Of a DNA stretch of 64,000 nt, positions 25,746-58,093 are shown piece by piece (the first letter of the stretch is position 1; each line of letters starts with the position of its first letter). The notes below the pieces were generated by a model. It did not search any database and was not told the origin of the DNA. It worked only from the letters and a program-made list of their open reading frames with translations. The stretch comes from Sphaerobacter thermophilus DSM 20745. Lineage in GTDB: Bacteria > Chloroflexota > Chloroflexia > Thermomicrobiales > Thermomicrobiaceae. Where the stretch lies: positions 1,736,001 through 1,800,000 of the forward strand of contig NC_013523.1 in assembly GCF_000024985.1 (NCBI RefSeq), in the 5' to 3' direction. A program made the translations under genes and the position numbers.

Positions 25746-27899
25746 GTGGAGCACTTCGACGAGCCCGCCCCGACGAGGTCCGTGTCGGGCGACTCCGAGC
25801 GATTGCGCGCGAACATCGAGCACGCCGCAGCGCTCATCGCCGACGGCCGTGAAGACGACGCCATCCCCTTGCTCCGGGCCGCTATCGAGGCCGGATACCC
25901 GGGCGCCGACGCGCGCGTGCTGCTCGGTGAGGTCCTGCTCCGCCATGGAGACACGGACGGACGGACGCTGCTCCAGGTCGCGACGATCGACGCCACCTGG
26001 GGAGCCCGTGCCCAGGCCGCGCTGCGGGCCGCTGACGGACACGCGGAAGAGCGAGCGGCCGTGGAGGCACCCTCACGGAAGCGGCCGCGCCGTGGGGCGC
26101 GGCTCGACCCGCTGACGATCGGCCCCTTCCCTCACACGAACCGCCTTCCACCGGCTGCCGCCCGTGTGATGGCCGAAGCAGATGCGGACGTGGCACGAGG
26201 GCGCCTTGAGAGCGCGCTCGATCTGACCGTCTACGCCGAGACGCTCGCCCCGGACGATCTCTCCATCTTCGTACGCCACGCCGAACTCCTCGTCGCCACA
26301 CAGCGCCAGGCCAAAGCGCTGGCGCTGGCCGCCACGATCCGCAGGCTCGCGGCGCTGCGCAGCGAGACCGAGCATGACCTGGCCCTTGCGCGCGTGGTCG
26401 CGCACGCCGCTCCCACGCTGGACAACGTCCTGGCTCTGGCACGAGCCGCGCTGGCCGCCGGCGACGCGTCGCTCAGCGACACCTACGTACCGGCTGCCAC
26501 CGCCGCCCTGTTGGAGGCCGGAGACGCAGCGGGTGCGCTCGATCTCGCCCGCGAGTGGCACGCCCAGGCGCCCGGTAGCTCGGTCGCCCGCCTCACCTAC
26601 GTCCGTGAACTGCTCCGCTCCGGCCAGGTGGCCGAGGCAGCCGATCTGACCCAAGATGTGGGACACGACCCGGCCTCATTTGTGGCTGCGCTGGCCGTCG
26701 CCGCCGCGACAGGTGCGAAGACGCAGTGGTCCCTCATCGCGCGGCTGGCTCGGGACGCTGCCGCCGGGCGCGTGGACCGGATCGAGGCCCAGCGCCTGTA
26801 GAGCGACGTGGCAGCGGTGTTGCCGGAGGGCACGGCCATGCCCGTGCTGCGCGCGCTGCTCGCGCTGGCCGTGGGTGACTCGCGCGAGGTCACCGCCCGG
26901 CTCGCGGGCTTCCGGCCGGCCGACCGCGTCAGTGCCTTCGTTGCGGCGGTGTGCTCGCTCCGCGCCCTGGGTCCGGACGCTGACTCCGCAACCGTGCTCC
27001 CGCCACTCCGGGCTGCCTTCGACCTGGCGGCGCACCCCGACGTCGCGGCCTTCGTGTCGGAGAATCCCCTCTTCGATCCTCCAGCGACGGCGGCATCTCT
27101 CGGTGAGAGCCTCGCCAACCTGCTCGTCGAGCGTGGTGAGTTCCAGGAGGCCCTCGCTGTCTACGAGCGACTCATGGGGCAGTACCCGGACACCCATCGG
27201 TACGCCCGTGCCCACGCCGAACTGGTGGGCCGCGCCGGCGAGACGGCCGAAGCCCTCGCAAAGCTCGATGCGTTGCGCGAGCAGGAGGAGGCCGCCGGGC
27301 GGCACGCCGAGGCGGAAAAAACCCTCGAGACGATGGTGCGCATCGCTCCGAGCCACCTCCCGCTGCGCGAGCGGCTGGTCGATATCCATCTCAAGCGCGG
27401 CCGGCTGGCAGAAGCCCTCCGCGAACTCTTCACCCTTGCGCAGTTGCTGGAGCGGCACGGCCGCGTCGCGGAGGCGATCGCTCACCTGCGCCGCGCCGCC
27501 GAGATCGCCACCCTCATGGGCGACTGGGAGAAGGTCGAGCCGATCTACGGCTACATGATCCGCCTGGCGCCCGAAGACATCGGGCTGCGGCACGCCGCCG
27601 CCGCCACCTTCGTCCAGCACGGGCGCATCGCGGAGGCCACGGCACAGCTCCAGGAGGTCTTTCGCATCGCGAGAACCCAGGAGGACTACGACGAAGCCAT
27701 CGCTGCGCTCCACCAGATCATCGCCCTCGATCCGACGGATCTGACGCCATACCACCGGCTCGGCGAGATCCTCGCCGCCGTCGGTGAGTACGGGCAGGCC
27801 GAGCGAGTCTACGGGCGCCTCGCCCAACTCGCGCCTGACGACCCGGCGATCAAGGCAAAGCAGGCCGCGCTGGCCGCCCTCGCCAAGAGACAACTATGA
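25746..27899 (+). pseudogene. TPR-repeat protein gene interrupted by an in-frame TAG
   Basis: One continuous reading frame of 718 codons is broken by a single TAG at 26799-26801 (codon 352). Both halves look like one helical-repeat protein. The first has repeated Ala/Leu-rich helix pairs; the second has clear TPR-like units (for example ALAVYERLMGQYPDTHRYARAHAELVGRAG and AERVYGRLAQLAPDDPAIKAKQAAL). The next in-frame GTG is only six bases after the stop and has no ribosome site, which argues against two real genes. CAG to TAG is the simplest explanation. It may be a true nonsense mutation, a sequencing error or a readthrough site. The GTG start at 25746 is approximate. It may be an assembly scaffold, but no function is known. 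Confidence 0.7.
26799..26801 (+). other. In-frame amber codon in the TPR gene
   Basis: TAG in the context CAGCGCCTG-TAG-AGCGACGTG. The reading frame is open on both sides for more than 350 codons. Confidence 0.85.
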
Positions 27900-41703: not shown

Positions 41704-41745
41704 GGGTACGGGTGCCGTCTCGCGAGTCCATCGCGGTGCCTCGCG

Positions 41746-41770
41746 CCCGGGGGTGAACCCCCGGGCTCAC
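41746..41770 (+). repeat. Palindromic repeat, copy 1 (CCCGGGGG-TGAA-CCCCCGGG)
   Basis: An 8-bp perfect stem with a TGAA loop followed by CTCAC. A second copy lies at 41908-41930. The form resembles dispersed REP-type elements of Chloroflexota. Confidence 0.65.
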
Positions 41771-41773
41771 AAC

Positions 41774-41793
41774 GAAAAACCCGCTAGAGCGGG
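41774..41793 (-). terminator. Terminator on the minus strand
   Basis: On the minus strand a CCCGC-TCTA-GCGGG hairpin (41789-41793 with 41780-41784) is followed by GGTTTTTCG-like sequence (five Ts at 41774-41778). It would end the response regulator transcript, although it lies about 360 bp past that stop. Confidence 0.6.
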
Positions 41794-41907
41794 CTGAGGA
41801 TGGGTTTGGCGTGCGGCTGCCAGTGCCGCCGTTGTGGTATGGCGCGGGATAATGTCGTCACATGGCCAGAGCCGGTTGTGTCAGGATCTCCGCGCCGTGG
41901 CCAATGA

Positions 41908-41930
41908 CCGGGGGTGAACCCCCGGGCACA
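41908..41930 (+). repeat. Palindromic repeat, copy 2
   Basis: CCGGGGG-TGAA-CCCCCGG followed by GCACA, nearly identical to the copy at 41746 and in the same orientation, 162 bp away. Confidence 0.65.
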
Positions 41931-42153
41931 AACCGCGACGCGGGGATCCTCACGCCACCCGCCCCGGGCCCTGACTACGACGCGAAGAACCTCGCAATAC
42001 CCGGCCCTGGGCGCGGACGGTGGACCTGATTGCGTCACCAGCTAACCGGCCACCCACGCCGTGGCGCGACGCATCGCCCCCGACCTCCCGCCAGCACCTA
42101 TCCGAGAGGATCCGGACGCGAGGGGCGACACATGACGCATGACATATGACGCA

Positions 42154-42858
42154 TCACTTCTGGTTGGTTGGGTCAGGTTCGTCGCTCAGCTTGATCCAGC
42201 CGTGGCGGAGAGCGTAGATGACCGCCTGGGTGCGGTCGTTCACCGCCAGCTTGCGCAGGATCGACGTGATGTGGTTCTTCACGGTCTGGTCACTGATATT
42301 GAGCAGGCGGGCGATCTCCTTGTTGCTGTTGCCCCGGGCAACGCAGTCAAGGATCTCCACCTCACGCGGCGTCAGCGGAGAGAAGACACCGCTGGAGACC
42401 TCGTCGATCTGCGCCAGTTCACGGAACTGATCGAGTACCCGCGAGGCGACGAATGGGCGCGACAGCACGTTCTCGTTGATGAGGTATTCCCCGCGCGCCA
42501 CCCGGCGAATCACGGTGACCAGTTCGGCCGGGTCAATGTCCTTCGTGCAGTAGGCTGAGGCGCCGACACGGATCGAGCTGAACAGTTGCTCATCGTCCTC
42601 GTGCATCGTCAGCACGACGATGGCTGCCTGAGGGTGCCGCCGCTTCAGCACCCGGCACAGTTCCAGCCCGCTCATCCCCGGGAGGTTCAGGTCGAGCAGC
42701 ACGACGTTCGGTGACAGCATGTCGGCCGCTCGCATGGCTTCCTGGGCATCCGATGCTTCCCCGACGACCCGAATGTCGCGCTCTTCTTCGAGGCTCCACC
42801 GGATGCCACGCCGAAAGAGGGGATGATCGTCGACGATCAGGACCTCAATCCGGTTCAC
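42154..42858 (-). CDS. NarL/LuxR-type response regulator (DegU-like)
   Basis: The 234-residue regulator has a receiver domain (IVDDHPLFRRGI; phospho-acceptor Asp56 in LLDLNLPGMSG) and a C-terminal LuxR-type helix-turn-helix (SPLTPREVEILDCVARGNSNKEIARLLNISDQTVKNHITSILRKL). I chose the GTG at 42858, preceded by AAAGGAGAG. It overlaps the end of the upstream DegS-like kinase gene by 14 bp, so the two form a pair like degS-degU. Targets are unknown. Because the kinase frame is interrupted, this regulator may lack its normal phosphate donor. Confidence 0.93.
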   Translation of the reverse strand: MNRIEVLIVDDHPLFRRGIRWSLEEERDIRVVGEASDAQEAMRAADMLSPNVVLLDLNLPGMSGLELCRVLKRRHPQAAIVVLTMHEDDEQLFSSIRVGASAYCTKDIDPAELVTVIRRVARGEYLINENVLSRPFVASRVLDQFRELAQIDEVSSGVFSPLTPREVEILDCVARGNSNKEIARLLNISDQTVKNHITSILRKLAVNDRTQAVIYALRHGWIKLSDEPDPTNQK

Positions 42859-43957
42859 GTCGCGCTCTCTCCTTTGGCTTGTAGGTCGGCACCGCACGCG
42901 CCTCATTCGCGACCGCGTCCGCTGGCTGCAGTGTGATCGGGACCACGAGTGTAACCTCGGTCCCCTGCCCGGGCCGACTCCGCACATTGACCCGGCCACC
43001 CACGACTGCGGCCCGCTCCTGCATACCTGCAAGACCAAAGCCGCTCGACGATGTTGGCGCCACCGCCGACGGGCGGAAGCCCTGGCCGTTGTCGCGGACG
43101 CGCACGGTCAGCTCCCCGTCACTCGCCCCGATAGTAACCGACACACGGCTGGCACGGGCATGACGATGTACATTCTGCAGGGCCTCCTGGATAACACGGA
43201 AGGCGGTCAACTCCTGCTCAGGGGTCAGCCGGGGTAGTTGCGGCGGAAGGGACAAATCGACCTCCGGCGGGAGGAAGCTTCGATACGTCTCGATGTAGTG
43301 TTCCACAGTCGCTACGAGGCCGCGCTGCGACAACATCGTCGGCCGGAGATCGAAGATGAATCGCCGGATCTCCGTCAGGCCTTCCCGCATCGCCGACTTG
43401 ATCCGCTCGATCTCCGCCAGGGGCTGGCTCATGTCGGACGAGCCTGTCGCACGGAAGGTGCGCTCGACAAACTCCAGGCCGATGATGGCGTTCGCCAGCA
43501 CCTGGGCCGGGCCGTCGTGAACCTCCCGCGCCAGCCGCTACCGCTCCACCTCCTGCGCCCGGATCATCGCTTGCCGGATCGCGAGCTGCTGGGCATCGTC
43601 CCGGCCGAGCAGCGTCTCATCGGCGCGGAACTGCTGGCGGCTCGATGCCAGCAGGCCCAGAAAATCGGTGAGCTGGCGATAGAGAACCGCTGCTCGCATG
43701 TACTCTTGGGCGACGAAATCCTCGTGCTGGCGCAGCTCCGCCGTGCTCGGCGGGCGCTGTGCCGACTCGACTCCCAGGCGGCGTTCCAGCTCGCGCTCTT
43801 CAATCGCGGCCTGAACCTCCGCTCGCTCCCGCTCCAGGTCCGCTAGAATGGAGCGCAGTTCACTCGCGAGCGATTCCAGACGCGACTCGCATGCGCCGAT
43901 ACCTTCGTCCATTGCCTGTTTGATCGCGCTCAGTAAATCGGGGAGCCGCCCGGACAC
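42845..43957 (-). pseudogene. DegS-like sensor histidine kinase interrupted by an in-frame TAG
   Basis: A 371-codon frame with a cytoplasmic N-terminal coiled-coil sensor region resembling DegS (LERERAEVQAAIEERELERR and VLYRQLTDFLGLL), then the dimerisation/phosphoacceptor box, and a HATPase domain (VIQEALQNVHRHARA; VRDNGQGF; GFGLAGMQERAA). A TAG at 43540-43538 (codon 140) falls between AQEVER and RLAREVHDGPAQVLAN. It is seven codons before the phospho-accepting His147. Homologues usually have Gln or Lys there, so CAG to TAG is the simplest change. An internal restart would lose the histidine. No membrane helix is seen. The GTG start at 43957 is approximate. Confidence 0.8.
43538..43540 (-). 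other. In-frame amber codon in the kinase gene
   Basis: On the minus strand the codons read GAG-CGG-TAG-CGG-CTG-GCG. The frame and protein similarity to HisKA_3 kinases continue across it without a shift. Confidence 0.88.
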
Positions 43958-44059: not shown

Positions 44060-44087
44060 AGTATAGCACGAGGCTAGCGGATGACAA
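44060..44087 (-). promoter_or_regulatory. Promoter of the DegS/DegU-like pair
   Basis: On the minus strand TTGTCA (44087-44082) and TATACT (44065-44060) are 16 bp apart, with a TGC extension on the -10. It lies about 100 bp before the kinase start, so the interrupted gene still has an intact-looking promoter. Confidence 0.6.
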
Positions 44088-44136
44088 GATATCTTAGTAC
44101 GTACGCCTGTACGAACACTGCGCGAGGAGGAACGGA

Positions 44137-51461: not shown

Positions 51462-51655
51462 CCTCCGGCGCGCCGAAGATGCGGCAGAGCGCGCATCCGC
51501 GGCTGTCGTACGCGCGGATGCGCGCTCCCACCGAGAACGCCTCCTTCCGGCGCCCGGCACAGGGCCAGGGCAGGCCGGCGGGCATGGCGTGGGACGTCAC
51601 GGGCCGGACCGAGTTCGGCACCGTTCCGCACGATCAAAGGGGGCGAGTCTAGCCC

Positions 51656-57448: not shown

Positions 57449-57486
57449 GAGCGCCTGGGCTGTACAGTCCAGGCGCTCTCGCTTTG
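57449..57486 (+). terminator. Terminator of the tRNA-Ser pair
   Basis: A long hairpin, GAGCGCCTGG (57449-57458) with CCAGGCGCTC (57469-57478) plus inner pairs, followed by TCGCTTT. It begins 13 bases after the second tRNA. Confidence 0.75.
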
Positions 57487-58093
57487 GAGGGCGGCGGTCC
57501 GAGCCGCCGCTTTGGTATCGCGCGGCGTCAGCCGCACCCGGGTTGGTACCGCGCCGACGTAGGGATGCACGATGGGTGGTGCGACGGACCCCGCGCGGTG
57601 ATCCCGTTCCGGGGCGGGTGCTGCGACGGATCCCGCATCCCGGCCCGTGCCCGGGGCTAAAGCCGCCGGGCTGAATAGTGGGTAAGCCCACTGAAGGGGC
57701 TACAATGGCCACACCGGGGCGGTGGTGATCCGGCTTCCCATCGGGCGCCATCTTCCCAACCCCTTCAGTGGGCTTCGCTTCGTAGCCCGGCGGCTTTAGC
57801 CCCGGGCACCCGTCGCGGTGCGGGACCCGTCTCGCCACCCGTCGCGGATCCGGTCTGTGGCCGCCCGAGCCGACTGATGCGGGCGGGAGACGGAGCGGCC
57901 GGCATGCCGGGTTATGTCGTCAACCTCCATGACCCCAGGGCCGTGACCATGCCTCAGGGCCCCTCGCACCACGCGCCCCGGACACATGCCGCGGCCCGGA
58001 ACCGCGTCACGCAGTCTGAAGGTCCTGAGCAGGACATGCCGGTCAATCGGATCGGCAGCACAATTCTGCTGACCTCCCCATGACCACCCCGTG
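57487..58093. other. Gene-free repeat-rich region
   Basis: No credible gene lies in these 600 bp. They hold the large imperfect inverted repeat (57600-57850), short direct repeats of TGCGACGGA-CCCGC (near 57580 and 57620), and unremarkable sequence up to the convergent membrane protein gene. Confidence 0.65.
57600..57850. repeat. Imperfect long inverted repeat, BIME- or MITE-like
   Basis: The left arm (core 57648-57700) carries GTGCCCGGGGCTAAAGCC, then GCCGGGCT and, after a divergent bit, AAGCCCACTGAAGGGG. The right arm (core 57760-57810) is its reverse complement: CCCCTTCAGTGGGCTT, then AGCCCGGCGGCTTTAGCC and CCGGGCAC. About 60 bp separate the cores. Weaker similarity (GCGGGA-CCGTC) extends outward on both sides. 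No transposase is present and no target duplication was clear. Confidence 0.75.

Follow-up and report, generated by a model that had tools for sequence, protein, structure and literature searches.

The kinase and regulator genes

The window, a 64,000-nucleotide stretch of the Sphaerobacter thermophilus DSM 20745 genome (NC_013523.1, positions 1,736,001 to 1,800,000), carries on its minus strand the genes of a two-component system. The kinase occupies a single unshifted frame (42845-43957) that begins with GTG, contains 369 sense codons plus an internal TAG and terminates with TGA. The internal TAG lies at 43540-43538, which is codon 140, seven codons ahead of the phospho-acceptor histidine, His147, and RLAREVHDGPAQ comes after the stop. 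This arrangement is as an earlier note on this DNA had described it. The features of the locus are listed below in window coordinates.

44060-44087, minus: promoter-like TTGTCA-16-TATACT ahead of the operon, with an extended -10 (kept in both Sphaerobacter relatives)
42845-43957, minus: interrupted frame of a soluble HisKA_3/HATPase_c sensor kinase (sequence, profile search, gap-free HOG56 alignment)
43541-43957, minus: N-terminal piece of 139 residues if translation stops at the TAG (no Pfam family)
43538-43540, minus: premature TAG, codon 140 (sequence; sense codon in 89 of 89 homologues)
43337-43546, minus: HisKA_3 domain interrupted by the stop, residues 138-207 (profile search)
43517-43519, minus: CAC codon of the phospho-acceptor His147 (sequence; H-box alignment)
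43499-43501, minus: GTG, the first usual start codon after the stop (product without His147)
42935-43213, minus: HATPase_c ATP-binding domain, residues 249-341 (profile search)
42867-42875, minus: AAAGGAGAG, the regulator's own Shine-Dalgarno-like site (read from the sequence)
42154-42858, minus: intact NarL/LuxR-type response regulator with a GTG start (sequence, profile search; dN/dS 0.008)

When read through the stop, the frame matches both HisKA_3 (PF07730; E ~2e-13), in a domain that spans the TAG, and HATPase_c (PF02518; E 6.4e-18 to 1.5e-17), and it contains the H-box HDGPAQ. The H-box and ATPase domain claimed in the earlier note are thus both in frame. Under the standard code, the TAG interrupts what would be a single continuous protein with both domains, and neither translated piece as a whole holds the HisKA_3 domain together with the H-box histidine. 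A restart at the GTG at 43501 yields 218 amino acids without His147, in agreement with the earlier prediction that an internal restart would lose this residue. The "full DegS-like N-region" previously assigned to the protein was not found, as neither Pfam nor NCBIfam contains a family that matches the first 139 residues. Additionally, the kinase does not match Pfam DegS (PF05384) at E 0.1, and the description "DegS-like" holds for the overall build only. No named equivalog was matched above its cut-off; the nearest solved structures include DesK.

Coding-potential scores are high directly up to the stop and directly after it. Because of this codon potential on either side, and because the frame aligns without gaps and at 95% amino acid identity to the uninterrupted orthologue of Sphaerobacter sp. 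HOG56, the frame is beyond what chance would produce.

The regulator start overlaps the end of the kinase by 14 bases. Its Shine-Dalgarno-like site is located 8 bases before the GTG, with identical bases in HOG56, and the regulator protein is 99.6% identical to its HOG56 counterpart. The kinase and the same regulator are adjacent in all 25 homologue loci checked. With this pairing, the low regulator dN/dS and the conserved promoter-like site, the expectation that promoter and downstream regulator are intact was borne out. Just upstream of the promoter-like site, between it and a divergent aroM-like gene, the three Sphaerobacter genomes share an identical block, CGTACAGGCGTACGTAC (window ~44090-44113), which is possibly an operator. 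Elsewhere in the window, a dispersed intergenic repeat at ~41730-42030 consists of ~60-120-base units in both orientations, with 91 matches on both S. thermophilus replicons and many in the two congeners. A second dispersed repeat at ~57480-57940 is roughly 200-360 bases long and has at least 8 further copies in the HOG56-like genome.

Kinase homologues and the age of the stop

At codon 140, the HOG56 orthologue has CAG and the orthologue of isolate Bu17 (73% identity) has CAC, while most Thermomicrobia have CGN in this column. The homologue alignment that the earlier note had called for contains no stop at this codon in any of the 89 homologues aligned. The in-frame stop is therefore absent from both congeners, HOG56 and Bu17, and from the orthologues at large, as is characteristic of a recent nonsense pseudogene. 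The change had been described as a clean CAG to TAG substitution. This is consistent with the CAG of HOG56; however, the base adjoining the stop has also changed silently, the window reading CGG-TAG where the relatives read CGA-CAG or CGA-CAC. The alignment of the window and HOG56 kinase genes extends over 1110 bases with zero gaps, which rejects a frameshift or an assembly join. Replacement by a close paralogue was likewise rejected: the S. thermophilus genome contains eight further HisKA_3-type matches, all at most 39% identical to the kinase, and the best of these other kinases reach 36-39%.

The search of the kinase's own genome also identified a paralogue of separate interest (G000:C1:897445-898536; L041:1498-2589, minus), a DegS-domain protein that matches Pfam DegS (PF05384) at 4e-8 and HisKA_3 at 6e-12. 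Its H-box reads RVVDGPAQ, with valine in place of the phospho-acceptor histidine, and its ATP-binding motifs are degenerate. Orthologues that are 40-95% identical occur at 15 further loci (L195-L209) in 15 genomes of Thermomicrobia and relatives. None of these 15 loci encodes histidine at the phospho-acceptor position, where V, L, A, T, I or E is found instead. Judged by these residues, the paralogue and its orthologues are a conserved pseudo-histidine-kinase family, which may merit more attention than the interrupted kinase itself.

To date the stop, substitutions in the kinase gene were compared with HOG56. The overall dN/dS is 0.10, with values of 0.05 before the stop and 0.15 after it. With Bu17 as the outgroup, the S. 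thermophilus lineage has accumulated 31 silent and 6 amino acid changes besides the stop, versus 19 silent and 8 amino acid changes in the HOG56 lineage (Fisher p 0.23). There is no excess of amino acid changes in the window lineage, and an old pseudogene was rejected since nonsynonymous change is not in excess. A Poisson estimate, simple and using rough assumed parameters, allows neutral drift to have lasted for no more than a few percent of the branch. Because the alignment is gap-free, dN/dS is 0.10 and amino acid changes are not in excess, the stop is either very recent, erroneous or tolerated. The low dN/dS is equally compatible with a sequencing error or with functional readthrough.

In-frame stops and TAG usage in the genome

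Approximately four genes with substitution-type in-frame stops, the kinase included, were found in 464 kb. Scaled to the whole genome, this corresponds to ~34 (30-40) such genes, in agreement with the 40 pseudogenes counted in the 3,993,764-bp genome of the S. thermophilus type strain (PMC3035262). In the same window, a TPR-repeat protein gene (25746-27893, plus) has an in-frame TAG at 26799, codon 352; its HOG56 orthologue is uninterrupted, reads CTC at the corresponding codon and remains in frame when aligned. An Ig-like-repeat surface protein gene (L191, 15065, minus) and a methyltransferase gene (L187, 4477, minus) likely contain an in-frame TAG and TAA, respectively, as assessed by coding potential and domain content and not by an orthologue. 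Two other candidates were rejected. The in-frame stop at 51650 lies in an upstream extension of a frame before its true start, and the supposed interrupted gene at 15808 of L182 is two adjacent ribosomal-protein genes.

The features that would indicate UAG recoding or suppression (a CUA tRNA, loss of RF1 and avoidance of TAG) were not found. RF1 is present with a score above cut-off, and no CUA anticodon occurs among the 49 tRNA genes (ARAGORN anticodons, read at the loci of all 49 tRNA matches). No stop is more frequent than TAG in the 464-kb sample, where it accounts for 138 of 270 or 128 of 280 stops by two criteria (46-51%). A C directly after TAG is also an ordinary context, seen at 49 of 128 TAG stops (38%). 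The RF1, tRNA set and stop usage reject general TAG recoding, and the analysis serves as a worked example showing that S. thermophilus does not recode TAG. Additionally, the same stop does not recur in several species, as conserved readthrough would have it, since HOG56 and Bu17 lack it.

Under the codon usage of the genome, and assuming a transition/transversion weight of 3, 69% of the nonsense changes reachable in one step are expected to yield TAG, with CAG to TAG the likeliest individual change (26% expected). The second in-frame TAG in the window had at first hinted at a systematic excess of TAG interruptions, which was rejected given this 69% expectation and the one TAA case in the sample. 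The stop is statistically unremarkable, with nothing unusual about it.

Explanations for the stop and comparison with known systems

The best explanation for a stop with intact copies in relatives, an intact regulator and low substitution elsewhere in the frame is that the type-strain lineage recently underwent an ordinary nonsense mutation, which truncates the kinase and leaves the intact regulator without its cognate kinase. From the sequence comparisons, we consider this highly probable. A formerly intact NarL-type soluble histidine kinase would have gained a Gln140 to TAG change in the S. thermophilus type-strain lineage, and translation would now end after 139 residues, ahead of the H-box. 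No protein with both the phospho-acceptor histidine and the ATP-binding domain would then be made at a normal level. The co-transcribed regulator has retained a ribosome site of its own and is very strongly constrained; its production probably continues, but it would lack its cognate phosphate donor. We infer from this arrangement the loss of kinase activity, continued expression of the regulator and the absence of another donor. Of the three readings offered by the earlier note, the dead sensor with an orphaned regulator is thus clearly favoured, whereas RF1, the tRNAs and stop usage are at odds with general readthrough or recoding.

A sequencing or consensus error at 43540, where T is read, is unlikely; in that case the living strain would have an intact kinase. 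The remainder of the frame does appear functional, and a relative carries CAG at the same place. However, the type-strain genome is finished, from 7.4x Sanger and 28.5x 454 coverage with Illumina polishing, at a stated error rate of less than 1 in 100,000 (PMC3035262). This rate allows at most ~40 wrong bases, of which perhaps one or two would make a stop, compared to the 30-40 genes with in-frame stops extrapolated above. Moreover, 454 errors are mostly indels, while the TAG is a substitution. Accordingly, where the event had been called recent or an error, the substitution data support its recency and the quality of the genome makes error improbable.

Low-level, perhaps regulated, readthrough of the TAG could instead supply a little full-length kinase, with selection keeping the downstream part; we regard this as very unlikely. 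The part after the stop is still constrained (dN/dS 0.15), and genes of low dN/dS with in-frame stops have been described as widespread in bacteria (PMC7918605). That study makes the case that bacteria tolerate many in-frame stops, and it counted only stops common to at least two genomes. The TAG of the kinase is private, missing from both congeners, and so falls outside this counting criterion; for the same reason the strongest kind of evidence for readthrough is missing. RF1 is present, a suppressor tRNA was not found among the 49 tRNAs, TAG is the major stop, and a following C is common at normal TAG stops. A mutation too recent to have decayed also yields an identical dN/dS. By extension, a leaky stop beside the active site might have retuned a highly conserved two-component system, with readthrough providing a little of a kinase that is still needed under selection; we regard this as very unlikely too.

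Least probable of all is that an N-terminal stub and a restarted C-terminal ATPase fragment are now both useful products of the gene: an AGGAGG Shine-Dalgarno-like stretch at 43554-43549 and the GTG at 43501 would permit the 218-residue fragment, but the usual restart drops half of the dimerisation/H-box helix along with His147, the sole start that keeps the histidine is a CTG at 43534 that is badly spaced (14 bases from AGGAGG), and the same Shine-Dalgarno-like bases occur in intact relatives, where they encode QEV.

If the recent nonsense mutation is real, the type strain would have a two-component system with no kinase of its own and a regulator that is near-invariant across the genus, and signalling studies on the type strain would not represent its relatives. 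Otherwise, the kinase is one among a few dozen ordinary pseudogenes.

The window kinase resembles the NarL-family kinases (the DesK, LiaS, NarQ and DegS class) in its HisKA_3 and HATPase_c domains, its H-box and the NarL/LuxR-type response regulator that comes next. Unlike these kinases, it matches no equivalog above cut-off, has no N-terminal Pfam sensor domain and has a stop before the histidine. The collinear kinase and regulator are shared with the operons of other Thermomicrobia (HOG56, Bu17, Thermalbibacter longus and others), whose kinases are 43-95% and regulators 67-99.6% identical to those of the window; however, all of these operons have a sense codon at position 140. Lastly, the kinase is like recent single-nonsense bacterial pseudogenes, including the 40 of PMC3035262, in having one substitution, no indels and constraint that has not yet relaxed, and is distinctive among them only in that its stop lies just before the active-site histidine.
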